42,680 bases of DNA from Anaeromicrobium sp. (lineage in GTDB: Bacteria > Bacillota > Clostridia > Peptostreptococcales > Thermotaleaceae), in NCBI RefSeq assembly GCF_025210435.1, contig NZ_JAOART010000084.1, positions 1 through 42,680 of the forward strand, written 5' to 3'. The notes below the pieces were generated by a model. It ran no database searches, was not told where the DNA came from, and worked only from the letters and a program-made list of their open reading frames with translations. Within the stretch, counting starts at the first letter, position 1; each line of letters begins with the position of its first letter. Positions 3,595-42,680 of the stretch are shown here, piece by piece. The translations under genes were made by a program, and so were the position numbers.

Positions 3595-4212
3595 TTATTC
3601 TTCCCCGTAGCCCTTTTCATACAATATATTCAGTTTATCCTTAGCATCTACAAGACTTTGGTCTGCTGACTTTTCATACCATTCTAATGCCTTTTGATAA
3701 TTTTGCTCTACTCCATTACCCTCGTAGTACATATCCCCAAGATTGTTTTGAGCAAGTATATCTCCTTGGTCTGCTGCCCTTTTATACCATTTTAATGCCT
3801 TTTCATAACTTTGCTCTACTCCATTACCCTCATAATACATATCTCCAAGATTATTTTGAGCACATGGATCCCCTTTGTCTGCTAATTTCACATACCACCC
3901 TAATGCCTCTTCATAATTTTGTTCTACTCCATGGCCTTTTGCATACATATAACCAAGATTATACTGTGCTGTTTCATTTCCCTGTTCTGCTGATTTCTTA
4001 TACCATTTTACTGCTTCTTCGTAACTTTGTTGTACTCCGTTGCCCGTTGCATACATATACCCTATATTACATTGTGCTGCCGCATCACCTTGCTCTGCTA
4101 ACTTCTTATGTAATTTTACCTCTACACTATTTTCATAGTCCATTGCATTACTTATTATTGGTGACATAACCATACTCATAAAAACTAATACTACTGATAA
4201 AATTTTTTTCAA
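3595..4212 (-). CDS. Exported Sel1-repeat (tetratricopeptide-like) protein
   Basis: The 205-residue product has a signal peptide (M-K-K, hydrophobic core to about residue 20, S-N-A cleavage site) and four full 36-residue Sel1-like repeats at about 39-74, 75-110, 111-146 and 147-182, plus a partial fifth. Each has the pattern A-x-x-G-D-x-x-A-Q-x-N-L-G-x-M-Y-x-x-G-x-G-V-x-Q-x-Y-x-x-A-x-x-W-Y. Sel1 repeats form alpha-solenoids that bind proteins, so this is likely a periplasm-side or surface adaptor. Translation appears to start at TTG (4210-4212) behind a GGGG ribosome site. Repeats three and four are almost identical in DNA, pointing to recent duplication. The binding partner is unknown. Confidence 0.85.
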   Translation of the reverse strand: MKKILSVVLVFMSMVMSPIISNAMDYENSVEVKLHKKLAEQGDAAAQCNIGYMYATGNGVQQSYEEAVKWYKKSAEQGNETAQYNLGYMYAKGHGVEQNYEEALGWYVKLADKGDPCAQNNLGDMYYEGNGVEQSYEKALKWYKRAADQGDILAQNNLGDMYYEGNGVEQNYQKALEWYEKSADQSLVDAKDKLNILYEKGYGEE

Positions 4213-4355: not shown

Positions 4356-4949
4356 CTAACACCTTACGACTGGTTCTGCTCCATGCAACCATGCACTAAA
4401 TATTACATATTCATTTGCCCCCCTATGAACCCATAAGGTCTCCTCTTGAGAACTAGCTGGTTCAGCTTTAGTAACATAATTATATAGGCCTAAATATTCT
4501 TGCCCCCCATAGAAATTTCTACTAACATTACTTTGTCTAACTGGTAAAATAGCAACTTTTCCTTTTAAGCCATCAAAGTACCCTAACTCCCAGGGCATCC
4601 ATTTAGAATTTTCCCTATCACTAAAAGTAGCATAAATTAAGGATTTACACGACTTCATTCTTTCTCTCAATATATGTGCCCTTTCCTCATTTATTCCAGT
4701 TCTATCTAATTTTGTACTATCAGTCCAGTGGACATATACTGAAAATCCCATCTTTTCAATTGTTTCTTTCAAGTTCAATATTTGCACTGCATCTGAAGAA
4801 TTATGAGAAAGGAAAATATCATATTTAGTTTCAGCAGAAAAATTCATCTCTAATTTCCTCAATCTTCCCTGTGCTTTTTTCTCCACAATGGCACGTTCAT
4901 ATCTATTTTTATAAATTCCTCGTAAATCAGACTCTTTAAATAATGCCAT
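4356..4949 (-). CDS. Stand-alone TIR-domain protein
   Basis: Residues 43-140 form a TIR domain: Y-D-I-F-L-S-H-N-S-S-D at 43-53 (box 1), G-F-S-V-Y-V-H-W near 68-75, a C-K-S-L-I-Y-A-T-F-S strand, then S-K-W-M-P-W-E-L-G-Y-F-D-G at 115-127. The latter holds the W-x-x-x-E pattern with E121 in the position of the NADase glutamate. Bacterial TIR proteins cleave NAD or make cyclic ADP-ribose signals, as in Thoeris ThsB, or act in other anti-phage systems. The first 40 residues are basic and helical; the tail (140-197) is unassigned. It has its own ribosome site (GGGGGG) and an extended -10 promoter. No ThsA, SIR2, SLOG or STING-like partner is visible nearby, so an immune role is inferred only from the domain. 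Confidence 0.85.
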   Translation of the reverse strand: MALFKESDLRGIYKNRYERAIVEKKAQGRLRKLEMNFSAETKYDIFLSHNSSDAVQILNLKETIEKMGFSVYVHWTDSTKLDRTGINEERAHILRERMKSCKSLIYATFSDRENSKWMPWELGYFDGLKGKVAILPVRQSNVSRNFYGGQEYLGLYNYVTKAEPASSQEETLWVHRGANEYVIFSAWLHGAEPVVRC

Positions 4950-9125: not shown

Positions 9126-9480
9126 TAAAGTGACCAAATCTATAAGCCGAGTTCTGTATTTGACAATCATCTATCTAGGCCTATTGTTGCCAATAGGCTC
9201 AAGCGACCTACCACGGGACACGACGGGCCGTCGTTACCAAATGTCCCTACTTGGTCTTGCTCCAGGTGGGGTTTACATAGCAGACTAGTCACCTAGCCCC
9301 TGGTGAGCTCTTACCTCACCTTTCCATCCTTACCAGTAAAACTGGCGGTCTATTTCTGTTGCACTATCCTTCAGGTCACCCTGACTGGGTATTACCCAGC
9401 ACCCTTGCCCTATGGAGCTCGGACTTTCCTCGTACAAGGCATGCCTGCACGCGATCATCTGACTTACTCACTTTATTCAC
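9126..9480 (-). ncRNA. rnpB: RNase P RNA (bacterial type A-like)
   Basis: The minus strand carries the universal rnpB landmarks in order: GAGGAAAGTCCGAGCTCC and CATAGGGC (P4 5' side and flank), CAGGGTGACCTGAAGG, CAACAGAAA, TAGACCGCC, a GGTAAGGATGGAAAGGTG region, GGTAAGAGCTCACC, and near the 3' end CAGAACTCGGCTTATAGA. The P1 strands AAAGTGA and TCACTTT frame it at about 9474 and 9127. About 350 nt and this layout fit a type A molecule. It is the catalytic RNA that matures tRNA 5' ends; its protein partner rnpA is not in the window. Exact ends are estimated. Confidence 0.96.
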
Positions 9481-22812: not shown

Positions 22813-23019
22813 AAAAAAACTCTCTCATCCCTAAAGAAGGGACGAAAGAGTTACTTCCGCGGTTCCACCCTTATTGATACATAATTCTATGCATCCTCTT
22901 TTCATTAGTAGCTCAGAAGCTCCCTTCATCAAGGTGTCATGTCGGCTTTCCACCATCACCAACTCTCTTTTATAACAGTACTTGACTACTCTTCTTCATC
23001 ACGGCTTTACCTATTACTT
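22813..23019 (-). promoter_or_regulatory. T-box riboswitch controlling glyS
   Basis: The minus strand holds the diagnostic T-box AGGGTGGAACCGCG (22858-22871), an upstream AGAGAG box, and a terminator hairpin AACTCTTTCGTCCCT / AGGGATGAGAGAGTT followed by seven T (22813-22852). Uncharged tRNA-Gly should pair with the TGGA bulge and favour the antiterminator. A likely specifier is GGG (or the overlapping GGA) in GAAGGGAGC near 22927, both glycine codons. The leader ends about 40 bases before the glyS start. Confidence 0.95.
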
Positions 23020-24571: not shown

Positions 24572-24691
24572 TATAGATTTCGTAACACCAAGATTTCTTT
24601 ATACAGTAACTTGCCTATAAGGGAAATTTTTTTCAATATATTTTTCTGAAATAGGCACACATAAAGCTTGTTTATAAATACGAAATCTATA
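24572..24691 (+). mobile_element. MITE-like inverted-repeat element, internally deleted copy (120 bp)
   Basis: The element is bounded by perfect 13-base inverted repeats TATAGATTTCGTA (24572-24584) and TACGAAATCTATA (24679-24691). Inside, the left arm (TATACAGTAACTTGCCTATA) and right arm (CTGAAATAGGCACACATAAA) match the arms of the two copies near 42.3-42.7 kb, but about 118 bases of the centre are missing. No coding capacity. It lies between era and yqzL in a 326-base gap. A second imperfect hairpin (24688-24723) follows at once; the rest of the gap is AT-rich with no gene. Confidence 0.8.
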
Positions 24692-33832: not shown

Positions 33833-33861
33833 CACAATGTTCTATGGGACAATTTAAGAAA

Positions 33862-33900
33862 ATAAAAATATCACGAGTAAGATTACTCGTGATATTTTTA
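33862..33900 (-). terminator. Terminator after the 127-aa membrane-anchored gene
   Basis: AAAATATCACGAGTAA and TTACTCGTGATATTTT form a long stem with a very short loop, with T run on both strands. On the minus strand it overlaps the stop codon of the 33898-34281 gene and precedes yqfC. Confidence 0.88.
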
Positions 33901-34281
33901 TTTTCTTAAAGATTTTGGTTTATTTAATATTTCATTCCAAACTATACCTTGTGCAATATTTTTCCTGTTCATATTTAGTTTTGATTTACTCTTTCCCATT
34001 CTCTTGCTACGGGGTTTCACTTCTACTAGTCTAGGTTCTTCTATCTTTTCAATATGTGTTTTATCTTCTACTACTTCCTTTACTTCTTCAATTATATCCT
34101 CTTCTTCACTAGTATCCATATATGGTTTTATCATTTCTTCCACATTAATGTTCTCATCTATGTGTTTAGTGTTTTTTACTTTTTTATTTTTTTTACTAAC
34201 TTGATTTTTCTTTGGCCTATTAAAAAAATTCTGGAAAAGATTCACAATGGCCACTATGATAATCATTATAATTAACTTCAT
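33898..34281 (-). CDS. Small membrane-anchored charged protein, unknown
   Basis: This 127-residue protein has one N-terminal membrane helix (L-I-I-M-I-I-I-V-A-I-V-N-L-F, residues 3-16), then a Lys-rich and an acidic low-complexity region, and a conserved-looking C-terminus (G-I-V-W-N-E-I-L-N-K-P-K-S-L). GAGGATG precedes the ATG. It lies 28 bases after floA and ends in a strong terminator, so it is last in the NfeD-floA unit. A link to flotillin microdomains is only positional. Confidence 0.7.
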   Translation of the reverse strand: MKLIIMIIIVAIVNLFQNFFNRPKKNQVSKKNKKVKNTKHIDENINVEEMIKPYMDTSEEEDIIEEVKEVVEDKTHIEKIEEPRLVEVKPRSKRMGKSKSKLNMNRKNIAQGIVWNEILNKPKSLRK

Positions 34282-41070: not shown

Positions 41071-42198
41071 TTATTTAAATATCTCTTTTACCTTATCAAA
41101 AAAAGTTTTTCTTTGTTCATGAACATCCTCATCCATTACGTCTGAGAACTTCATTAGCATTTCCCTTTGCTTAGAGTTAAGTTTCTTAGGAACTTCCACT
41201 ATGATCTTAACATAATGATCTCCCCTACCATAACCTCTCATGTTAGGGATTCCCTTTCCTCTTAACCTAAATATGGTTCCACTTTGAGTTCCTTCAGGAA
41301 TTTTATACTTGACCTTTCCGTCTAAAGTTGGAATGATTAATTCATCTCCCAAAGCTGCTTGAGTAAATGTTATAGGTACGTCACAAATTATATCATTGCC
41401 TTCTCTTTTAAATAGTTCATGGGGTTTAACCCTAAGTATAATAAATAAGTCACCAAAAGGGCCTCCCTTTTCACCAGGCTCACCTTCTCCCCTAAGAGAT
41501 ATGACAGAACCATTATCAACACCTTCTGGTATATTTATTTGTATAGTCTTATTCTTAAGCTCTTTTCCAGTTCCATGGCAAGTATCACAAGGTGATTCTA
41601 TTATATGACCTTCTCCGCCACATAGGTCACATGGTTTTACATTTACAAACTGGCCTAGAGGTGTCCTTTGTGCATATCTAACTTCTCCAGTTCCATTACA
41701 AGTAGAACATGTCTTTTTAGCTGTTCCTTCCTTTGCTCCTGTACCACCACATTTTTTACAACTTTCATGCCTCTTTATATTTACTTCTTTTTTAGCTCCA
41801 AAGGCTGCTTCTTCAAAGGTAATATTAAGTTCGTATCTTAAGTCAGCACCCTTTTTAGGTCCGTTTCTTCTTCTAGATGAAGAAAACCCGCCTCCAAACA
41901 TGTCAAAAATATCACTAAATATATCGTCAAATCCACCTGCTCCGAATCCACCTGATCCGAATCCACCTTGACCATCAACACCTGCATGGCCAAATTGATC
42001 GTATCTAGCCTTTTTTTCACTATCACTAAGAACTTCGTAGGCTTCGTTGATTTCTTTAAATTTTTCTTCTGCTTCCTTATCCCCTGGGTTCTTATCCGGG
42101 TGATATTTCATAGCAAGTTTTCTATATGCTCTTTTTAATTCTTTTTCATCTACATTTTTATCTGTTCCTAAAACTTCATAATAGTCTCTTTTTGCCAC
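41071..42198 (-). CDS. dnaJ: Chaperone DnaJ (Hsp40, type I)
   Basis: DnaJ delivers clients to DnaK. The 375 residues show the J domain (Y-H-P-D-K-N-P-G-D near 32-40), a Gly/Phe-rich linker (about 70-110), four C-x-x-C-x-G-x-G zinc repeats ([32 protein letters not shown] at about 145-210) and two client-binding barrels. Start is GTG with GGCGGTGAG upstream. dnaK is expected to the right but lies beyond the window, past two mobile repeats. Confidence 0.98.
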
Positions 42199-42286
42199 TA
42201 ATTCTCACCGCCTTTCTAATTGGGTCTTGCGAGAAATCACAAGCTATATCAATTATATTCAAAATACATTATCATTGCAACTATTT

Positions 42287-42524
42287 TATAAATTTATCAT
42301 CACTAAGCTTTTTTATAAAATAACTTGCCTACGAAGGTAAATATATTGAAAATTTTTGGAACCCTGGAACGTCACAACAGCATATGCTACTCAAACATGA
42401 GTCATGAACCTATCTACGAAAATTCAAACTTTCGCTTGTGACAAGGACTTGGGTGGAAAAAATGTTCAATATATTTTCCTGAAATAGGCCCGCATAAAGC
42501 AATTTTGTAATCAAGAAATCTATA
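42287..42524 (+). mobile_element. MITE-like element, full-length copy (about 238 bp)
   Basis: It runs from a degenerate left terminus TATAAATTTATCA (42287-42299) to CAAGAAATCTATA (42512-42524). Nested inverted pairs are seen: TTGCCT/AGGC arms, ATATATTGAA (42341-42350) with TTCAATATAT (42465-42474), ACCC with GGGT, and GTCACAA (42371-42377) with TTGTGAC (42436-42442), so the whole unit can fold into one long hairpin. It encodes no protein. It is followed without a gap by a second copy and lies upstream of dnaJ. Confidence 0.75.
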
Positions 42525-42680
42525 TAGATTTCTTGGTTTTAAATTTGTTTTATACAGTAACTTGCCTATAAGGGAAAATATATTGAAAATCTTTGGAACC
42601 CTGGAACGTCACAACATCCTATGCTACTCCAACATGACACATGAACCTATATACGAAGATTCACACTTTCGCTTGTGACA
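42523..42680 (+). mobile_element. MITE-like element, second copy, cut by the window end
   Basis: It begins at TATAGATTTCTTG (42523-42535), sharing the central TA with the end of the first copy. The interior (GGAACCCTGGAACGTCACAA...) is about 85-90% alike to the first copy by eye, with the GTCACAA/TTGTGAC arms kept. It is still open at position 42680. Confidence 0.75.

Follow-up and report, generated by a model that had tools for sequence, protein, structure and literature searches.

An apparently IS630-mobilised repeat family with a conserved folded interior and a strong orientation bias in Anaeromicrobium sp. and a sister species

Our analysis of a 42,680-nucleotide stretch of Anaeromicrobium sp. 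DNA, which constitutes contig C38 of a 3.96-Mb genome in 148 contigs and is hereafter called the window, revealed a family of short repeats. They are multiple copies of a small transposon that lacks an enzyme of its own and is apparently moved by an IS630-type transposase. The interior of these elements folds into a hairpin that is conserved in a sister species, and copies that lie between co-directional genes are nearly always antisense to them. We consider it probable, from sequence comparison, that an IS630-type element mobilises this MITE family and that the action of its RNA inside the host message filters the insertions.

Results

An earlier note, made from the letters of the window, had placed three copies of the repeat there, and all three were found where it put them (Table 1). 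The 24.6-kb copy was said to retain both ends and to lack its centre. Both claims were borne out: the copy carries a perfect 13-bp terminal inverted repeat, and the internally deleted form is present in at least four copies of the own genome, this one included (a lower bound, as exact flanks were required). At three deletion junctions, GGGAAAA stands directly before GATTTTC or AATTTTC, a pattern that suggests loss of the interior between short GGAAAA repeats. The full-length copy at 42287-42524 has a diverged left end, TATAAATTT, which leaves a perfect terminal repeat of only 4 bp. The copies were further said to hold no open reading frame (ORF), and indeed no ORF of 80 or more amino acids overlaps them; in this, as in their short length and terminal inverted repeats, they conform to the description of a MITE. 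Smaller ORFs reach 38 amino acids inside the copies and 65 where they overlap an edge. A small-peptide reading of the 38-residue ORF was dropped after inspection of the sister copies. Its place was found in 62 of these (and not in 12 more), and in 61 of them a stop closes the frame before 34 codons have passed.

Table 1. Positions of the repeat copies in the window and of their parts
Feature	Position	Strand	Remark
Internally deleted MITE copy, 120 bp	24572..24691	+	folded core absent; both ends and GCCTA/TAGGC arms retained
Left terminal inverted repeat (perfect, 13 bp), flanking TA included	24572..24584	.	
Right terminal inverted repeat, flanking TA included	24679..24691	.	
DnaJ-like gene (by reading only), adjoining the full-length copy	41071-42198	minus	
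Full-length MITE copy, 238 bp	42287..42524	+	antisense to minus-strand gene 41071-42198
Conserved folded interior	42320..42500	+	model R1, 182 bits
Outer helix, 5′ side, GCCTA	42327..42331	+	
Core helix, 5′ side, GTCACA	42371..42376	+	
Core helix, 3′ side, TGTGAC	42437..42442	+	
Outer helix, 3′ side, TAGGC	42485..42489	+	
TA common to the two adjoining copies	42523..42524	.	
Third copy, truncated by the contig end	42523..42680	+	TA in common with the second copy

Counting copies across the genome, as the earlier note had proposed, yielded 238 core matches at up to three mismatches (114 forward and 124 reverse). The repeats are not due to chance, because the reversed-pattern control gave none. 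Complete copies are uniform in size, with 41 of the 43 usable ones measuring 234-240 bp (one zero-length row of 44 was left out). Among the core matches listed, more than 20 are found no further than 200 bases from the start of a contig, as would be expected if the repeat interrupts the assembly.

Beyond the own genome, the family is narrowly distributed. A DNA search found matches in 3 of 60 genomes, the own genome included (best 13 candidates scored per genome). When 17 genomes of the taxonomic family were searched with a covariance model and the best 150 candidates were scored in each, three matched, namely the own genome, the sister species G001 and G015; the other 14 had no match. The elements also lie at many loci, and the distribution is not that of a structured RNA held at the same locus in distant species, the finding that the earlier note had named as speaking against a MITE. 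All 150 scored candidates matched in the own genome, which therefore holds at least 150; G001 gave 86 rows, two of them reverse-strand shadows and the last few partial, or about 84 copies, and G015 gave two. G015 belongs to another genus, and its copies at C5 and C22 share 85-90% identity with the own type across a portion of the element; those of the same-genus species reach at best 76% over its whole length. That the G015 copies are the closer ones suggests that they may have been transferred recently. We found no match by blastn in plasmid and phage collections, which may leave out the window's own genome, and none to the exact core pattern in genome-contig and viral-contig collections, from which the own genome may be absent as well. 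No Rfam family fits the element at gathering score in a scan of the whole window. At relaxed thresholds, only animal and plant miRNA and similar models appeared, far below their gathering scores, and the best of these near an element at 10 sister loci was mir-459 (E value of 0.013, 28.9 of 62 bits).

The earlier note had also described the elements as flanked by TA, and TA was present at both ends of 44 of the 47 complete copies with enough flank, the other three being off by one base; this count is partly built in, since the search motif held the TA with one mismatch allowed. Because of this, the insertion sites themselves provide the more independent evidence for insertion at TA. At locus L020, a full copy is nested in an internally deleted copy with TA on both sides, and its flanks, once joined at a single TA, match the window's deleted copy apart from a further gap of 25 bases. 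Nine distinct element-TA-element junctions occur in the loci examined. A search for orthologous gaps by flanking proteins, in which 45 G001 elements were compared with 662 kb of own-genome loci (overlaps included), recovered five gaps. The element is absent from the own species in three of them, with junctions that are compatible with TA insertion without being base-perfect, one of the three aligning poorly. It is present in both species in the remaining two, and in one doubly occupied gap an 80-base stretch from the beginning of the sister-type copy can still be aligned (67/80) directly before the start of the own-type copy. Collectively, the mobility of the repeat family is well supported.

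The earlier note had further proposed a search for an IS630-type transposase with TATAGATTTC termini, and a DDE_3 fragment with such a terminus is present in the own genome. PF13358 (DDE_3) has matches at three places there, and the transposase fragment P0001, a C-terminal piece of 152 amino acids (E value of 4.4 × 10−21), occurs at five places, every one of which ends at a contig end; of the IS itself, the assembly contains no more than the 3′ end. All five places being cut in this way, this assembly holds no full-length transposase, and an own-genome search for the N-terminal half, run without a positive control, was empty. A 33-base pattern taken from the P0001 end occurred at six places in the own genome (control, 0), comprising five IS ends and one MITE copy (C21). 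The latter, picked by that same pattern, is identical to the IS end at 33 of 33 bases, and the ends of the window copies agree with it at 26, 24, 18, 21 and 26 of 33. Within the order, relatives were found in 24 of 394 genomes, counting the own genome; a related-locus search with the fragment gave 50 pattern matches, none of them confirmed. Among the terminal repeats of IS relatives at five loci in other genomes, one pair starts with TATAGAT and scores no better than two rival pairs there, and we therefore set it aside as evidence. The guess of a Tc1/mariner-IS630-type MITE is thus supported by the copy number, the TA boundaries, the empty and nested sites and the DDE_3 fragment with its matching end. 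As a full account it is incomplete, since the conserved, covarying fold and the strong orientation bias described below lie beyond it.

The window copy folds better than its shuffled versions on both strands (z of −4.8 and −5.1). The G001 copies have different termini and the same core. Two-sided changes were seen at 16 of 27 consensus pairs in 34 mixed sequences and at 17 of 27 pairs in 74 sister copies. The latter set contained 207 such cells, a number reached by none of 500 shuffles and to be compared with 18-27 cells for slid structures. The 74-copy alignment was fitted to model R1, itself built partly from these copies, and a sequence-only realignment of the same copies gave a similar nested fold. 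These comparisons show that the interior of about 180 nt constitutes a conserved, long predicted hairpin whose pairs covary and which was retained across sister species with different termini.

Such a fold would also be expected of a static, riboswitch-like RNA family that does not move. This reading is extremely improbable, as it is contradicted by the empty sites, the nested insertions, the TA boundaries and the presence of the element at hundreds of loci, and no Rfam model matched at gathering score.

The fold is accompanied by uneven conservation along the element. In 69 of the 74 sister copies (three short matches, one own-type copy and the weakest copy were left out), identity to the consensus was 0.90 in the core, 0.82 in the arms and 0.62 in the terminal zones, the last value possibly being lowered by flank misalignment. 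Where the terminal zones are most decayed (0.32-0.43, six copies), core identity is 0.93, 0.89, 0.58, 0.89, 0.84 and 0.78, and the correlation between core and terminal identity is 0.34. Sister copies appear to be older than own copies, because their mutual identity is lower (0.75 versus 0.91). The aligned copies show that, as far as identity to a consensus can tell, the core was kept in many individual copies whose termini had decayed.

An appearance of core constraint and of covariation could also be produced by gene conversion or by template switching in imperfect palindromes. On this basis, the family could be a plain MITE with a functionless interior, its palindromy and covariation arising from these processes at the DNA level and its orientation bias from target choice. 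Long stem-loops are usual in bacterial MITEs (PMC2229807), the copies look mosaic in their arm variants by eye, an own-species copy at one shared site carries a young-type core beside older-looking sequence, and the core was lost as well (0.58) in one of the most decayed sister copies. However, the internal loops and unpaired core bases of the sister copies are conserved, whereas template switching would tend to erase bulges, and a 103:6 bias relative to local genes is hard to obtain from a symmetric TA target. We therefore regard the functionless interior as an unlikely explanation.

The orientation of the copies was scanned with R1 in 81 sampling windows of 10-43 kb, mostly 20 kb, chosen for holding copies, with genes called by a simple codon-score script rather than taken from annotation. 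Of 144 rows, 140 copies were placed, after three reverse-strand shadows and one contig-end copy had been left out. Between co-directional genes lay 109 of them, 103 antisense and 6 sense (a bias of 94%; P = 7 × 10−24, with neighbouring copies not fully independent), divided as 63:2 in the own species and 40:4 in the sister species. The other 31 comprised 11 in divergent and 9 in convergent gaps, 10 at the edges of sampling windows and 1 in an ORF. Half of the four sister sense copies are halves of inverted pairs. Head-to-head inverted element pairs were observed in G001 at L262, L265 and L136, one half of each being sense to the genes. In many cases a copy occupies almost all of the space separating two genes, which makes co-transcription with host genes likely. 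Target choice beside terminators was considered and dropped, with terminator-like hairpins lying near the right end of 17 and near the left end of 13 of 72 copies.

Orientation could instead be set by the direction of the replication fork at insertion, which would agree with the 15:5 distribution of non-codirectional copies against the leading strand (by GC skew, P = 0.04) and with copy L320, which is sense to its genes yet against the skew. The bias is, however, stronger in codirectional gaps (103:6 versus 15:5, Fisher P = 0.014), and four clear discordant copies (L273 twice, L277 and L280), each in an operon that points opposite to its surroundings, follow local transcription, being antisense to the local operon and along the surrounding leading strand. 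Three near-even cases comprise one copy antisense and two sense to local genes. Transcription is the better predictor of orientation, and we consider a decisive role of the fork improbable.

The element might also carry a promoter of its own and make a small structured plus-strand RNA; an insertion in sense would then drive expression of the gene behind it and be eliminated. In the sister species, the plus strand does fold better as an alignment (alifold energy of −18.2 versus −2.3 for the minus strand; GU 132 versus AC 35 cells), though host messages would carry the minus strand. GU over AC wobbles, counted by column pair, likewise favoured the plus strand there (23 versus 10, P = 0.035), and the counts averaged per reference copy were 128 versus 99; column-shuffle z-scores were set aside for this species, as their null had almost no spread. 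Neither strand is favoured in the own species (11 versus 7, P = 0.48; 58 versus 55; −22.0 for plus versus −23.2 for minus), and only 2 promoter-like sites were found in positions 42200-42680, where 2.3 were expected. The same scan gave one terminator-like site (0.1 expected), which is the palindrome where two copies adjoin. Against a baseline from the first 41 sampling windows, the gap classes of the own genome track gap length (65, 9 and 6 copies seen versus 61.4, 13.7 and 4.9 expected, P = 0.36), so that divergent gaps, with 9 of 80 copies, are not clearly depleted, and the sister species has 2 copies in divergent gaps versus 11.5 expected (class P = 0.005). On balance, an internal promoter seems a rather unlikely cause of the bias.

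Discussion

The reading that we favour, filtering of the insertions by their RNA, would proceed as follows. Non-autonomous IS630/Tc1-mariner-type elements (MITEs) would be moved in trans into TA sites by an IS630-type transposase, their interior would act as RNA, and co-transcription with host genes would filter the insertions. Copies that place the plus strand (the GGAACGTCACAACA strand) in the message would be removed; those that place the complement of the GGAACGTCACAACA strand there would do no harm or be of use, and selection may maintain some of them. The fact that intergenic copies lie almost always in one orientation suggests that the fold may matter beyond jumping, and a role of the interior at the RNA level, which might concern processing, decay, termination or protein binding, is our best inference. 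A further-reaching version, possible but doubtful, is that the MITE serves as a vehicle for a functional RNA module of about 180 nt, which an IS630 transposase would spread through intercistronic gaps in a constant orientation and which host selection would maintain after mobility was lost, so that dozens of operons would share one RNA-level control element. One family with closely similar and more diverged copies in two close species offers a natural experiment on how transcription filters structured mobile repeats. Should selection be maintaining the core, the family would exemplify a transposon that delivers an RNA element to numerous operons.

Several known repeats resemble the family, each by literature description. 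RUP of Streptococcus pneumoniae, found with IS630-Spn1, is likewise short and non-coding, has TA at its ends and resembles a resident IS630 element in its termini (PMC2229807 and PMC3049150), and the former source names it as the one repeat that had been linked to an IS at the time. It differs in its 107 bp and its over-representation between convergent genes, as opposed to 238 bp with a covarying core here (PMC3049150). Its orientation differs as well: RUP and BOX lie on the leading strand in about 61% of cases, RUP in 60.9% (PMC3049150), compared with 103 of 109 copies antisense in codirectional gaps here. ERIC/IRU elements share TA ends, intergenic location and a stem-loop RNA, and reportedly alter mRNA stability in one orientation; they measure 127 bp and belong to enterobacteria (all from PMC2229807). 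PMC3049150 describes Correia elements of Neisseria and BOX of pneumococcus as folded repeats reported to affect co-transcribed genes, in other hosts, with BOX being modular and linked to ISSpn2, and the Nezha MITE of cyanobacteria as having a resident, ISNpu3-like IS as its proposed mover. The terms "orientation", "antisense" and "IS630" are absent, by term search, from the main text of a 2024 review of prokaryotic MITEs (PMC10969869), and among the open-access matches listed, titles and the starts of abstracts contained no description of such an element.

The window holds several features apart from the repeats. Four direct repeats (CTCAGTCTCAAACTT-like) at positions 2-135 lie beside a minus-strand ORF (137-532) with a phage-integrase N-terminal domain (PF14659), and they are perhaps candidate binding sites of the integrase. 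A Sel1-repeat protein is encoded at 3595-4212 by 108-bp tandem repeats, and an ORF at 4356-4949 resembles a TIR-type domain protein by reading only, with no Pfam match at an E value of 0.001. Rfam identified an ordinary RNase P RNA at 9127-9470 and an ordinary T-box leader at 22835-23011. Finally, an inverted repeat at 33853-33910, with perfectly matching 28-bp arms set 2 nt apart, is perhaps a bidirectional terminator.
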